DNA of 64,000 bases from an uncultured cyanobacterium (GCA_937944885.1 CALFBB010000027.1:1-64000), one strand, 5' to 3'. Counted from the first letter of the stretch, positions 23,873-35,694 are shown. Translations and numbers: made by a program. The notes: generated from the letters alone by a model not told the origin.

Positions 23873-26080
23873 TTATCCCAACAACTGCCGGGCCCGCTGC
23901 ACAAAAGCTTCCACCGTTAAGCCGTTGAAGGTCATCAGCTCGGCGGGTGTAGCGGTGGTTTCCCCTCGTTTCCAAGTTAAGAAATCCCGTGGGCCGGTGT
24001 AGCGCAGCATCAGTGGCTCTAGCATTAAGCTGGCCCCCCCCGTTACGCCGATTAAGACATCCCCCGCAAAGCCATCCGCAAACTCTGCATCCGTTAGAAA
24101 CTTTCCATCCGGTTGGGCACAGGTTGACCAGGCTACATCCTCAGGGCGGTACAAACGACGTGGGTTGACCACTGAGACAATGCGGGATCCGATCCCTTGC
24201 GCGCTCAGTTGCTCAGCCGCCTCAAACACCGGCAGCAGGATCATATCCCCCACCACGGCAAAGACCACCGTTTTGGACCCGGGCAGTTGCTGGAGCAGAG
24301 TGTAGCCTTGTTCTACCGCTTGGCGAGCTTGCTGGAGACTGGTGCGGATGGGTAGAGGGGTTTTGCTGGCAATAATCGGGATCCCTTTGTTGAAGGTGCC
24401 TAAGGCCCATTCGTAGGCAGCTTGCGCACAATTGGCATCCGGCGGAAAAAGGGGGAAAACATTGCCGTTGCGTATCATGGCCGCCAGGTAAGCCTCAATT
24501 TCAGGCCGCTGGTGGGTCCAGCCGTTGCGCCCCTGCTCCAAAGCGCCAGCGGTGTAGAGGGCAATCAGAGAGGGGGTGGGACGCCGCAATTCCGCCATTG
24601 CTTGGGTGACGGTCTGCCAAATCGGTAGGCCGTTGATGGCAAAGGATTCGTAGGAACACCACAGGGAGCGTCCCCCCAACAGAGCTAGACCTGCTGTCAG
24701 CCCGGCACAGGCATCTTCGCTTAAGGGTTCATAGACCTGTCCCTGCGGTTGTTGGTTGTAGAGGGGATCCACGGTGGGGTGAATCACCTTGAGGCCTTGG
24801 TTGATGTTGGCAATGCCGGAAGCCTCGTTGCCATCGGCGTTGGCCACCAAAAAGTCTGGATCCTTTTGTCCCACTTGCACCACCATTGCCCCGATGGCTG
24901 TGGTGGAAACCTGCTTATCCCCCAGGGGAAATTCTGTGACCGTCAGGGATCCCAGCTCTGGTAAGGGGCGAATGGATTCGGTAACGGCAACGGTTGCCGC
25001 CGGCCCCCCTGCTGCCCGTTCACAATTTTGTCGGACCAAGGCCCAGGCTGCCGGAGCCAGAGCTCGTGCCCGCAAAGCCGCAACAATATCGGGGTTATCT
25101 AGGGTGTGGTGGCCGTAGAGATTGTGGGATTTGGATCCCTTGGCGTGCACTCCTGCCCCTTTCAGCTGTTTGAGGATAAAGACCGTCAGTTGCCCTGACA
25201 TTGCCGATCGGATGGCCCGTTCCATTTCGGTGAGTACTGTCCGGGCAAAGCGGATCCGGCCTTCTAGGGAGAACTGGGTGCTATCTACATAAGAGCCGGG
25301 TTGATCGGCATCGTCGAAGTCTTTGGCATCCACCAGCACCACTTCCTCAAAACCATTACCCCGCCAGTAATCCACCATCTGGGTGTTGCTCATGGCCGAA
25401 ACCATGCTGTGGTGCTCCTGGCTGTAGCCATTCCAAACCAGCACAGGCAAAAAGTTGGTCCGCTGCGGAAAGGCGGTGTGAAAGTGGATCATGGAGCTCA
25501 TCACATAAGGCTCTCCCAAGCCACCATCGCCAATCGTCACCGGGAAGAGGCGATCCGGATACAGCAAAGCCCCTGCCATGGCAAAGTGTTGCCCCTGACC
25601 CAATGGGCCTGCCGGTGCCAGTAAGCCGGGAATATAGCCGGATAGGTGCCCCAATAGCCCCTCCCGTTCCCGGAAGCGAGCCCGTAAATCGGTGACGGTG
25701 TGGATGCCCATCCCCGCCAGGGATCCATCCAAAAACATGGCTGCATAAAATCCCGGTGCGTGGTGACCGACTTCGGTGGGGATATTCTTGTGCCCCAAAT
25801 AGACCAGGGCGGCATAGGCTTCCGCTTGGCTGGCAAACCCACCCGGATGCCCTGAGGCTTTGCTGGCGGTCATTTGTAAGGTGAGGTACCGTAGGGCATC
25901 GGCATAGAGCAAGGTTTGATAGGCAGCCACCCGACTTCCGGGATCCCTCAGCTTGCCGGTGGCGGCATCTACCGCAGGCGCTTGGCCCAGTTGCTCAAAC
26001 TCCGGCCAGGGATCCCCAAAGTACTGGATCCCATCACAGAAGGCTGGAATCTGAGTGGTTGCATCCTGAGCCAGGGTCAT
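23873..26080 (-). CDS. Thiamine-diphosphate enzyme, divergent phosphoketolase/transketolase-like
   Basis: 735 residues from ATG 26080 (MTLAQDATTQ). The frame is open to 26173, but the added residues are basic and not conserved-looking. The N-terminal half has 'SKASGHPGGFASQAEAYAAL' (transketolase-like) and the ThDP motif GDGG...N ('TIGDGGLGEPYVMSS...LPVLVWN'), then 'HAKGSKSHNLYGHHTLDN'. The C-terminal half has a pyrimidine-binding 'LSEDACAGLTAGLALLGGRSLWCSYESFAING' segment. It resembles the divergent second phosphoketolase-like proteins of cyanobacteria more than canonical Xfp. It would cleave xylulose-5-P or fructose-6-P if active as phosphoketolase, but transketolase-like activity cannot be excluded. 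Confidence 0.75.
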   Translation of the reverse strand: MTLAQDATTQIPAFCDGIQYFGDPWPEFEQLGQAPAVDAATGKLRDPGSRVAAYQTLLYADALRYLTLQMTASKASGHPGGFASQAEAYAALVYLGHKNIPTEVGHHAPGFYAAMFLDGSLAGMGIHTVTDLRARFREREGLLGHLSGYIPGLLAPAGPLGQGQHFAMAGALLYPDRLFPVTIGDGGLGEPYVMSSMIHFHTAFPQRTNFLPVLVWNGYSQEHHSMVSAMSNTQMVDYWRGNGFEEVVLVDAKDFDDADQPGSYVDSTQFSLEGRIRFARTVLTEMERAIRSAMSGQLTVFILKQLKGAGVHAKGSKSHNLYGHHTLDNPDIVAALRARALAPAAWALVRQNCERAAGGPAATVAVTESIRPLPELGSLTVTEFPLGDKQVSTTAIGAMVVQVGQKDPDFLVANADGNEASGIANINQGLKVIHPTVDPLYNQQPQGQVYEPLSEDACAGLTAGLALLGGRSLWCSYESFAINGLPIWQTVTQAMAELRRPTPSLIALYTAGALEQGRNGWTHQRPEIEAYLAAMIRNGNVFPLFPPDANCAQAAYEWALGTFNKGIPIIASKTPLPIRTSLQQARQAVEQGYTLLQQLPGSKTVVFAVVGDMILLPVFEAAEQLSAQGIGSRIVSVVNPRRLYRPEDVAWSTCAQPDGKFLTDAEFADGFAGDVLIGVTGGASLMLEPLMLRYTGPRDFLTWKRGETTATPAELMTFNGLTVEAFVQRARQLLG

Positions 26081-26226
26081 GAGCGCCGCCTCGCTATACT
26101 TGTGTGAATTTCTTCTCACTGTAAACCTGATTGCGGCAGTCGTGAGAAGCTGAAGGTTCCTCCGGCTTGGCATCCGGTTAGACCAACTGACTTGGGGATC
26201 CCTGGTAGCCTACCGCTGCTTGTAAC

Positions 26227-31900: not shown

Positions 31901-32105
31901 GGCCGTCTTCAGGAGGGAGCAATGAAGAAAGTTGGCTGACCAAGAACACGATGAAGCTGTTCACTTCGGGGGGAAATAGGCGATGCGCCTCCGTAACAAC
32001 TTGCCCAAGCGCTTCTCCGGCTACTCATCTCGTCCAGCCACATCATAGATAGCACCTCGGCTGCGGGCAATGCTGGTAAACTAAGGTGCCGGTTTGCCAT
32101 ACTCC

Positions 32106-33188
32106 ATGACCGACTCACTTTCTTCGATTTCCGAACGTAAGCAGGATCACTTGGACATTGTTCTAGAGCAGGATGTCTCTGCCAAAGGGATCCGCACCGG
32201 GTTTGAACGGTTTTTTTTCGAGCATGTGGCTCTGCCGGAGTTGCATCTGGATCAGATCGACTTGAGCAGTGATTTCTTGGGCAAACGACTGCAAGCTCCT
32301 CTCCTCATCAGCAGCATGACCGGCGGAACCGGATCCGCCCATGAGATCAATTTGCAATTGGCTGCTGCCGCCCAACATCTGGGTATTGCCATGGGGGTGG
32401 GATCCCAGCGGGCTGCCCTAGAACATCCGGAATTGACCTGGACCTATCAAGTGCGCAAGGTTGCACCCGATATTCTTCTGCTGGCCAATTTGGGGGCGGT
32501 ACAGCTCAACTACGGCTATGGGCTGGAGCAAGCCCGGCGGGCGGTGGAGATGATCGAGGCGGATGGGCTGATTTTACATCTCAACCCTCTGCAAGAGGCG
32601 GTGCAACCCCATGGGGATCGGGATTGGCGGGGGCTGTACGCTCGCATCGAGCAGTTGGTGGCGCAATTGCCGGTGCCGGTGGTGGTCAAAGAAGTGGGGA
32701 ATGGCCTGAGTGCAACGGTGGCTCGCCGGTTGGCGGAATGTGGGGTGGCGGTTTTGGATGTGGCCGGCGCCGGAGGGACCAGTTGGAGTGAGGTGGAGGC
32801 GCATCGGCAACCGGATCCGCTGCGCAAGCGCATTGCCCATGCTTTTGTGGGGTGGGGGATCCCGACTGCTTTGGCGCTGCTGGAGATTCGCCGTCAGTTG
32901 CCCCATTTGCCTTTGGTGGCCAGCGGAGGGATTCGCAACGGCATTGATGTCGCCAAGGCCATTCGCCTGGGGGCCAATCTGGTAGGAATGGCTGCCCCGG
33001 TTTTACGGGCGGTCTGTGGGGCACAGGAGCAAGCGGTGATCGAGGCAATTCAAGCGGTGATTGAGGAGTTGCGCATTGCGGCTTTCTGTACAGGATCAAG
33101 TGACCTGAACCGGCTCAAACAGGCCACCCTCCGCCGCCAGGATACTTGGGATCCAGTCCCTACACCCCGATCACCTGCCACAGGCTAA
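32106..33188 (+). CDS. fni: Isopentenyl-diphosphate delta-isomerase, type 2 (FMN-dependent)
   Basis: 360 residues from ATG 32106. A TTG at 32094 would add four. Features: 'RKQDHLDIVL' N-terminus, 'APLLISSMTGGTGSAHEINLQLAAAAQHLGIAMGVGSQRA', 'LHLNPLQEAVQPHGDRDW', 'VVVKEVGNGLS', 'VAGAGGTSW' and 'ASGGIRNGIDVAKAIRLGANLVGMAAP', the FMN phosphate site. It interconverts IPP and DMAPP for carotenoids, phytol and quinones. The 3' end overlaps the convergent Fe-S membrane protein gene by 29 bp. Confidence 0.95.
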   Translation: MTDSLSSISERKQDHLDIVLEQDVSAKGIRTGFERFFFEHVALPELHLDQIDLSSDFLGKRLQAPLLISSMTGGTGSAHEINLQLAAAAQHLGIAMGVGSQRAALEHPELTWTYQVRKVAPDILLLANLGAVQLNYGYGLEQARRAVEMIEADGLILHLNPLQEAVQPHGDRDWRGLYARIEQLVAQLPVPVVVKEVGNGLSATVARRLAECGVAVLDVAGAGGTSWSEVEAHRQPDPLRKRIAHAFVGWGIPTALALLEIRRQLPHLPLVASGGIRNGIDVAKAIRLGANLVGMAAPVLRAVCGAQEQAVIEAIQAVIEELRIAAFCTGSSDLNRLKQATLRRQDTWDPVPTPRSPATG

Positions 33189-35694
33189 CGGTCAACAGTA
33201 GTGCCCCCAAATGCAAGGGCCACTGCAGACCTTGGCGGGCTATCTTTTGGATCAACACCCAGGAAAGCAGCAGGCCCAAGATCAAGGTGCATCCCTGCAG
33301 AAAGTCAATCACCGCCGGATGGGCACTCCAACCGGGGAGGGTGGATCCCACTTGGCCAAACGTTGCCCAAGTAACCGGCAGGATTTGCCCGGCCTCCGTT
33401 AAAAAAAGGGGCCAGTAAAAGGCCAAGGTACCCCCGAGCACCAGAGGTAAGTAGCCGTAGATCATCTCGGCAAATCCCCGCTGCCCCTTTCTCCGACCTT
33501 GCCCCAGCCAAGTCAATCCATAAGCCAAAAGCGGGATCAGACTAGGGATCCCCAGCGCCAGCAGAGAGGCTCCTAAGTGGGGCCAAAACTTTTGCAGATC
33601 CCAGCTCAACCCCCCCACCTGTTCAACCCAAGTCATTACCCGGGGCAAACAATGGAGGTAAATCCCCCCCAGCAGCAGCAACAGCAAAGCCACCTCATGG
33701 GGGCGGGGGGTATGGGTTGTCCACAGTTCAATTCCCGGTGGGCGCAGGTTGAACTCCACCGAGCGGTGCGGGCAAGCCTTGAGGCAGGTCATACAGAGGA
33801 CGCAGTCTTTGTTGTCCTGCAGTTGGGCCGGATGGGAGTAGAGAGGGCAGCCCCCCGTTGCCATCCCCTCGCCTTTGGCCGGCCCCCCCTTGTAGCACTG
33901 GTAGGTGGTGCACTCCGCCGAACAGGTACCCTGCTGTGCCCGTAGCTCCGTTATGGCGAGTTTGGCATACAGACCATTCATGCCGCCGATTGGGCAGAGA
34001 TAACGGCACCAAAAGCGCCGCTCAAACAACAAGGAGCAGACCACCGCTCCGCCCGTAATCAGCAACAGCAACCACGCCGATAGATAGGCCGTATTCGGCA
34101 AATCCCAAATCTCTTCCCACAAGAAAATCAGGCCAAACCCGGTTAATAAAATCCATCCCCCCCAGCGCTCCGCCCATGCTCGGGGCCATTTTTTCAGTTG
34201 CCGCGGCCAGATCCACAGGGACACCTTTTGCGCCAGTTCCCCATAGATCATAAAAGGGCAAACCGCACACCATATTCTGCCCAAAAAGGGGAAGATCATA
34301 AGAATCACCGGCCACCACCAGGCCCAAAACAAGTTCAGGCCGATGTTGTGGGCCCGATCCTGCGGCCCCCAAAACAGCAGAAAGACAACCAGTGTGTACA
34401 GGGGCAGCACCAGGCCGTAGTTGAGGCGATCCGGCCACCAAGGGCTACGCAGAAATTTTCGCAGATTCGGATAGGCATTGAGCAAATTGAGACGAAATTG
34501 CTTACCCCGTGGCTGAGAAGGCCAAAACACCTCTTCGTTCAACACCGCTGCCCCTGCTGCCTGAACCACCGCCCGCTCAATCAAATTGCGCAATTCCCGT
34601 GAATTGCCGGGGTAATCATAGCTTTGCAAGCGCCGCAGGGCTTCCGGACTGAGGCGGGGTTTGGGGATCCCCCGGCGACGGCTACAAAGACTGAGGAAAT
34701 ACTCTGCTTTGGCTTTAATATCGGCTTTGCGCACCCGCAGCGGCGGTACCTTGATGGCAGTCACCCAGGGCTCCAGAGCAGGGATCACCCGTTCCGACAC
34801 CATAAGAATCCGACAGCGACAAGGGCGGGGATCCGCTGTTGCTTCACTCTCTCCCCGCTGCACCGGTGTGTAGGATCCCGTCTCCAGTAGCTGGAGGATC
34901 TTCGGCATCAACTCAGCGGGTAACTCTTGGATGTTGTTGAGCAGAAGAGTGCCTTCCCCCAGCCATTCCAGCAATCCCGGCTTGCCCCCGGCTCGCCCAA
35001 ACAAATCCGCTCCACTAGCCTGCAGAGCGCTGCAATCCAGCTTAATCATCGGTTGGCGACGGTAAGGGGAGCCAAAGTGGATCAAAGCAGCAATGTTGTC
35101 TTTTTCTAGGCCCGGTTCCCCGAAGATCAAAATCGGCTGGCGGCTGTGGGCAGCTTCCTTGACCTGTTGCCGCAACCGCACTGCATAGCGGCTAGGGCCG
35201 ACAATGCCCCGATCCACCTTCGGGACCAAATAGGGTCGCAAAGCCACCTGACGTTCTTGTTCGTAGCTGAGGCGAGCAGTCATCTCGGCCAGGGCTTCCA
35301 CCAATTCCTGAGCTTCCACTTGGTTAGACAGCCAGCTTGCCACCTGAGGATGCTCTGCTACCCAAGCCCGCACCGCAGCAGCAGGGATCCAACCCAAGCT
35401 CCCATCCGAAAGAGCAACCACACTGCAGGACAGGGGCTGCTCCGTCAGCACCTCCTTCAAGCCGGTTATGGATCCCGGCAATAGACATACCTGCGACAGA
35501 GGATCCCGTTGTTCCCATCGCCCCTGGAATAGGATCTGGATCCCATCGGGCACCGTTGCGGCTTCTGCCAAAGCCTGCCCTTGCCGAAAGGGGCGCTCCT
35601 GCATCTGTTCGGCCAGGGGATACAAACTCTCCGGCGGCAAGGCTTGAAATAAGGTGTGAATTTTAAGCCACTGGGCACGCTCTGCCGGGATCAT
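33160..35694 (-). CDS. Fusion protein: cNMP-binding-like domain + degenerate AAA+ + NapH/NosR-like polyferredoxin membrane domain
   Basis: 844 residues. About 10-125 looks like a cyclic-nucleotide-binding-type beta roll ('LFQALPPESLYPLAEQM'). About 160-385 follows the sigma54-activator AAA+ core ('GIVGPSRYAVRLRQQV', 'LKLDCSAL' equivalent, 'LRVRKADI', 'YDYPGNSRELRNLIERAV'). Walker A keeps only a G192-to-K198 skeleton (GEPGLEKD). The Walker B DE pair is Asn253-Asn254 and the GAFTGA loop is absent. From about 425 there are roughly six to eight membrane helices with NapH/NosR-type cysteines: WCAVCP (475-480), WCRYLCP (562-568), CSAECTTYQC (591-600) and the ferredoxin motif CVLCMTCLKACP (631-642). 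I infer a membrane redox sensor or electron-transfer protein with a regulatory, probably non-hydrolysing head. Confidence 0.85.
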   Translation of the reverse strand: MIPAERAQWLKIHTLFQALPPESLYPLAEQMQERPFRQGQALAEAATVPDGIQILFQGRWEQRDPLSQVCLLPGSITGLKEVLTEQPLSCSVVALSDGSLGWIPAAAVRAWVAEHPQVASWLSNQVEAQELVEALAEMTARLSYEQERQVALRPYLVPKVDRGIVGPSRYAVRLRQQVKEAAHSRQPILIFGEPGLEKDNIAALIHFGSPYRRQPMIKLDCSALQASGADLFGRAGGKPGLLEWLGEGTLLLNNIQELPAELMPKILQLLETGSYTPVQRGESEATADPRPCRCRILMVSERVIPALEPWVTAIKVPPLRVRKADIKAKAEYFLSLCSRRRGIPKPRLSPEALRRLQSYDYPGNSRELRNLIERAVVQAAGAAVLNEEVFWPSQPRGKQFRLNLLNAYPNLRKFLRSPWWPDRLNYGLVLPLYTLVVFLLFWGPQDRAHNIGLNLFWAWWWPVILMIFPFLGRIWCAVCPFMIYGELAQKVSLWIWPRQLKKWPRAWAERWGGWILLTGFGLIFLWEEIWDLPNTAYLSAWLLLLITGGAVVCSLLFERRFWCRYLCPIGGMNGLYAKLAITELRAQQGTCSAECTTYQCYKGGPAKGEGMATGGCPLYSHPAQLQDNKDCVLCMTCLKACPHRSVEFNLRPPGIELWTTHTPRPHEVALLLLLLGGIYLHCLPRVMTWVEQVGGLSWDLQKFWPHLGASLLALGIPSLIPLLAYGLTWLGQGRRKGQRGFAEMIYGYLPLVLGGTLAFYWPLFLTEAGQILPVTWATFGQVGSTLPGWSAHPAVIDFLQGCTLILGLLLSWVLIQKIARQGLQWPLHLGALLLTVSLWQVIGV

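Follow-up and report, generated by a model that had tools for sequence, protein, structure and literature searches.

The window analysed here is a stretch of 64,000 nucleotides from an uncultured cyanobacterium, and its minus strand carries, at positions 33160-35694, a single uninterrupted open reading frame with an ATG start, 844 codons and a stop. The gene is situated downstream of a DUF6930/DUF7309 gene and lies tail-to-tail, with a 29 bp overlap, with a gene of the FMN-dependent dehydrogenase family (32094-33188), presumably a type 2 isopentenyl-diphosphate isomerase. Elsewhere in the window, positions 23873-26173 encode a divergent phosphoketolase-like protein of 766 amino acids, which the XFP models match weakly (2e-14). 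In the 844-residue protein, Pfam recognizes Sigma54_activat (residues 165-280, 1.8e-15), AAA_lid_14 (320-384, 9e-16), two copies of Fer4_5 and, below the cut-off, a weak cNMP_binding match (34-114, 8e-5, 22.9 bits). The predicted structure of the full protein has a mean pLDDT of 85.5. A reading made from the sequence alone had placed in this one gene a head resembling cyclic-nucleotide-binding (CNB) domains, an AAA+ core and an iron-sulfur membrane part, and the intact frame, the Pfam matches and the fold comparisons agree with it. The same reading had considered that a sequencing error might have merged two separate genes. Since the identical fusion recurs in more than 100 independent genomes, an assembly join is rejected as its origin.

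The CNB-fold head comprises residues 1-130 (35305..35694, minus strand, as for all features below). Its fold matches CNB domains with Z of 17.4 and 16.9 (about 17 to 2ptm and 16.9 to 1u12), which places it within the CNB fold. The phosphate-binding cassette is non-canonical: among the 107 sequences assigned to subfamily 1, which include one damaged subfamily-2 copy (L131), position 75 is Ala, Ser or Thr in 102, in place of the usual Glu, and the conserved cassette Arg is found at position 90 in just 30. A role as a cAMP sensor was rejected on the basis of this cassette. The head has also been lost repeatedly; it is gone from an entire genus (family f24) and is reduced or absent in picocyanobacteria.

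The second part, residues 160-390 (34525..35217; core 160-315, lid 316-390), is a pseudo-AAA+ domain of the sigma54-activator type. It superposes on FleQ (6jdi) with Z 24.0 and an rmsd of 2.2 over 226 residues, NtrC1 is equally close (Z 24, rmsd 2.2, 225-226 residues for the two), and regulators, VpsR as well as FleQ, are among the nearest folds. Profile and structure thus bear out the sigma54-activator ancestry proposed earlier. Matches in a defence library are exclusively to the AAA+ domain of RtcR-like proteins. A longer version of the protein, of 1134 residues, is encoded at L114:5104-8505 with two tandem AAA+ domains before the membrane module, and proteins of equal length and layout occur in two further genomes (G046, G059).

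The motifs of this domain are altered in a fixed manner. In the P-loop GEPGLEKD (residues 192-199, 35098..35121), the Walker A Lys198 is invariant in the 107 subfamily-1 sequences (107/107), and the position before it, normally Gly, holds Glu in 86 of them and Gly in 17. The Walker B segment LLLNNIQE (residues 250-257, 34924..34947) has Asn-Asn instead of Asp-Glu, with N253 and N254 each present in 105/107, so the substitution first noticed in a single sequence is a property of the subfamily. The GAFTGA loop is missing as described, LFGRAGGKPGLLEWL standing in place of the NifA segment with a deletion of 8 residues. The Arg-finger segment FREDLYYRLN is missing as well, and sensor I and PPLR lie 12 residues closer together than in NifA. 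The Glu in the P-loop, the missing Arg-finger segment and the eight-Cys dicluster pattern of the ferredoxin region are additions to the sequence-only reading.

These changes bear differently on the two nucleotide-related properties that had been suggested for the domain. Hydrolysis of ATP, previously held to be probably absent, is very probably so, given the Asn-Asn Walker B and the lost Arg-finger segment. Nucleotide sensing finds no such backing: the Gly before the invariant Lys is mostly Glu, the Glu and Arg of the CNB cassette are not conserved, and ATP binding by a P-loop of this chemistry appears doubtful. The hosts also lack the partner of a sigma54 activator. In 175 Cyanobacteriia genomes, no RpoN match is credible, the four hits obtained being partial and of borderline significance, and sigma54 and its activators were found in none of 29 cyanobacteria (PMC3162934), in agreement with the earlier remark that cyanobacteria are not known to use it. 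Pfam detects no helix-turn-helix (HTH) or other DNA-binding domain in the 844 residues. The pseudo-AAA+ domain cannot function as a sigma54 activator, and a sigma54-dependent regulator was rejected as lacking GAFTGA, the Walker B acids, the Arg fingers, an HTH and a host sigma54.

The third part, residues 396-844 (33163..34509), is a nine-helix membrane module with a cytosolic ferredoxin loop, predicted to run from an inside N-terminus to an outside C-terminus on the basis of positive-inside counts. Modelled alone, it reaches a pTM of 0.86. Twelve Cys are invariant, each being present in 130-131 of the 131 sequences compared. Four of them belong to the membrane-interface motifs CAVCP (residues 476-480, 34255..34269) and CRYLCP (residues 563-568, 33991..34008), which adjoin helices 2 and 4 and were both already seen, with their preceding Trp, in the earlier reading. 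The other eight (C591, C595, C600, C616, C631, C634, C637 and C641; 33772..33924) lie in the ferredoxin loop and are conserved in 130/131; they form an unusual first motif, Cx3Cx4Cx15CP, followed by Cx2Cx2Cx3C. The [4Fe-4S] motif reported previously is thus present, but as a variant dicluster pattern rather than a single cluster. With 95% consensus, the loop is the most conserved region family-wide.

The twelve invariant Cys are naturally read as serving redox chemistry or electron transfer, as had been suggested. The mean numbers of Lys and Arg in the loops of the nine helices, whose boundaries were taken from the structure model, are 6.9, 1.5, 4.7, 0.0, 10.9, 1.0, 2.5, 0.9 and 1.5, and this alternation fits an N-terminus inside. 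The Cys motifs and the AAA+ domain are accordingly predicted to share the cytosolic face, the iron-sulfur content and the membrane side being deduced from sequence. The best NCBIfam family for the membrane part is NapH/MauN (TIGR02163), which covers both Cys motifs at 1e-12, with 48 bits against a cut-off of 213 bits. NosR matches weakly. Of the three relatives proposed for this part, CcoG has no model among the NCBIfam matches at E 0.1, and a distant CcoG/FixG kinship may still exist. No solved relative of the module is found by sequence; all Foldseek matches have E > 0.5, and the best VIA-align Z, 6.5, is in the range of unrelated helical bundles. As the Fe-S loop is also modelled with low confidence, the path of the electrons cannot be traced through the structure.

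A single scan of bacterial and archaeal contigs confirmed 374 relatives. In a phylum-wide sample, for which the share of other classes is unstated, every match fell within the same class. A family member is present in 124 of the 175 sampled Cyanobacteriia genomes: the window type in 115, subfamily 2 in 21 (17 of which have both) and a picocyanobacterial branch in five. Subfamily 2 is a paralogue, about 41% identical to the window type, and its 20 sequences (L131-L150) form a clade with support of 1.0 and retain a canonical GxGKT P-loop. The fusion common to 115 genomes and the separate paralogue clade indicate that the fusion is old and the split between the two types ancient. Two subfamily-2 copies (L104 and L131, in G014 and G045) appear to be interrupted, or to carry a frameshift, close to the beginning of the membrane module. 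The window gene itself has been lost within its genus. Two congeners (G001, G003) are without it, and a third (G004) retains, between the same neighbours, a disrupted fragment comprising roughly the final 80 codons (L112:9513-9773). The loss is recent, and at least some congeners can do without the gene, probably in a condition-specific manner.

Selection acts unequally on the three parts. When the window gene is compared with its 89% identical counterparts in two congeners, dN/dS rises from 0.04 in the AAA+ part to 0.09 in the membrane part and 0.19-0.22 in the CNB head, so that the AAA+ part is the most constrained within the genus; across the whole family it is the Fe-S/membrane part, rather than the AAA+, that is most conserved. 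The AAA+ part is kept in every member examined, including small picocyanobacterial versions without all or most of the CNB head. This retention, together with the low dN/dS, suggests that the AAA+ domain probably performs something needed by the membrane module.

Gene neighbours, which the sequence-only reading had named as a check, give no clue for the window type, for which no neighbour is conserved across 80 loci. Among the 175 genomes, it does not co-occur with NiFe hydrogenase (p 0.49) or NifJ (p 0.85). Co-occurrence with NarB-type Molybdop_Fe4S4 reaches p 3e-5, but this association is not used as evidence, since the statistic ignores phylogeny and many of the absences come from genome-reduced picocyanobacteria. 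The genome of the window (G000) has no Molybdop_Fe4S4 match and five congeners have one; its assembly is ~95% complete, and a gap may be the cause.

The surroundings of subfamily 2 are more informative. Cysteine synthase A (cysK, TIGR01139) is encoded downstream in the same orientation in 11 of 20 loci, seven of them with an overlap or a gap of no more than 4 bases, and occurs anywhere in the flanks of only 4 of 92 subfamily-1 loci (p 3e-7 between the subfamilies, kinship ignored). The flanks contain psbA in 4/20 subfamily-2 versus 1/92 subfamily-1 loci, and FeoB and an aldehyde-oxygenase paralogue each in 3/20 versus 0/92. Two of the D1 proteins encoded beside the paralogue (L143:2625-3878 and L144:8286-9578) carry D170E, E189D, E333A and D342V, numbered by our own alignment to standard D1, which is the pattern of 'rogue' D1. 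An SQR-like flavoprotein is encoded near two loci (L134, L147), and hydrogenase is enriched in genomes with subfamily 2 (15/21 versus 35/154). The sqr gene lies close to low-oxygen psbA genes in 15 cyanobacterial genomes (PMC5061849). Taken together, cysK, the psbA variants, FeoB, the SQR-like gene and hydrogenase place the paralogue in reductive, low-oxygen or sulfidic settings. This context may extend to the window gene, but need not.

The interpretation to which we give about even chances is that of a membrane electron-transfer protein that takes up electrons on the cytosolic side and uses the pseudo-AAA+ domain as a docking, oligomerisation or gating module. Electrons from a donor in the cytosol, for which reduced ferredoxin is the most plausible candidate, would enter the variant two-cluster loop and pass through the CxxCP and CxxxCP sites to an acceptor in the membrane, such as the quinone pool or a partner protein. 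The retired sigma54-activator domain would survive as a rigid element for docking, oligomerisation or conformational gating that shares its membrane face with the clusters, and through it the N-terminal half may control the membrane half, the CNB-fold head being an optional addition. The model is favoured by the twelve invariant Cys, the top-conserved Fe-S loop, the NapH/MauN match and the shared cytosolic face; the direction of the electrons, their donor and acceptor and the gating role are conjectural. The model also accommodates an AAA+ domain that is kept under strong constraint while its catalytic motifs and the host sigma54 are gone, as well as a paralogue near cysK, psbA variants, FeoB and an SQR-like gene. 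Against it stand the lack of conserved neighbours of the window gene and its independence of hydrogenase and NifJ, as well as a membrane fold with no solved relative and a low-confidence Fe-S loop. A bolder form, in which the pseudo-AAA+ domain gates ferredoxin electron entry into the quinone pool, as an overlooked route in about two thirds of cyanobacteria with the paralogue serving low-oxygen or sulfidic conditions, is a long shot.

The constraint on the AAA+ part within the genus could also be that of an output domain. The protein would then be a membrane-tethered regulator in which the Fe-S module serves as the sensor of oxygen or redox state and the pseudo-AAA+ domain as the output that binds or sequesters a transcription or signalling protein, in the manner of sigma54-independent activator relatives of the TyrR and VpsR type. 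The fold neighbours FleQ and VpsR, the oxygen- and sulfide-related genes beside the paralogue and the weak match to NosR, itself annotated as a regulator, agree with this. However, a DNA-binding domain is absent, the Fe-S/membrane part exceeds the AAA+ in family-wide conservation, and the 80 window-type loci contain no conserved target gene nearby, which makes such a regulator a tentative and rather unlikely explanation. It is unlikely, too, that the protein is a maturation or repair factor like NosR, NapH or CcoG, delivering low-potential electrons for the assembly or protection of a metal site, for instance while a photosystem or an oxidase is being built: the NapH-type membrane module, the near-housekeeping distribution without a fixed operon and the psbA variants adjoining the paralogue would suit it, but no client is conserved, and the loss of the gene in three congeners argues against an essential photosystem role. 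That the AAA+ domain is a passive relic riding on a working Fe-S protein accounts for its lost catalytic motifs but is scarcely credible in view of its dN/dS, its conserved Lys and Asn-Asn and its retention in all examined members while the CNB head was lost.

Under the electron-transfer interpretation, a transcription motor would have been co-opted into a membrane redox protein after losing catalysis, in a widespread and strongly conserved cyanobacterial gene. If its electrons do feed the membrane, it would provide an extra ferredoxin-linked route for electron flow, either photosynthetic or in the dark. A 'sigma54 regulator' label derived solely from domain matches would mislead. Functional work would start better from subfamily 2 than from the window gene; the link of the paralogue with cysK and low-oxygen D1 genes offers a direct experimental handle. 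The gene had been put forward as an undescribed system; no description was found in the searchable literature, which leaves most subscription journals outside and may miss an account under a locus name, but it is a widespread single gene and not a multi-gene system.

With the sigma54 activators (bEBPs such as PspF, NtrC1, FleQ and NifA), the protein shares the AAA+ core and lid fold, at 27-32% identity over ~225 residues; it differs in having no GAFTGA, Walker B acids, Arg-finger segment or HTH, in its membrane Fe-S module and in a host without sigma54. VpsR, TyrR and DhaR are soluble regulators that retain a DNA-binding domain, and both features set them apart from the protein described here. 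A bEBP fold without GAFTGA is common to both. In these sigma54-independent relatives, the loss of GAFTGA accompanies a role other than sigma54 remodelling (PMC3162934). CRP-type CNB domains share the fold of the head (Z 17), whereas the cassette Glu and Arg are not conserved and the HTH is absent here. NosR, historically termed a regulator, is likewise a membrane polyferredoxin with a Cx3CP motif (a weak match), and differs by its FMN_bind domain, which Pfam does not detect here, and by a NosZ context, none of which is seen. NapH/MauN (TIGR02163), a quinol-dehydrogenase ferredoxin family, has in common with the protein the two membrane-interface Cys-Pro motifs and the cytosolic dicluster ferredoxin region. 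Compared with that family (48 of 213 bits, no nap context seen), the protein has five extra C-terminal helices, a variant first cluster motif and the AAA+/CNB N-terminus. The parts are thus known, and what is new, as far as searched, is that they are combined and that a sigma54-type AAA+ domain has been disabled in a fixed way within a membrane redox protein.
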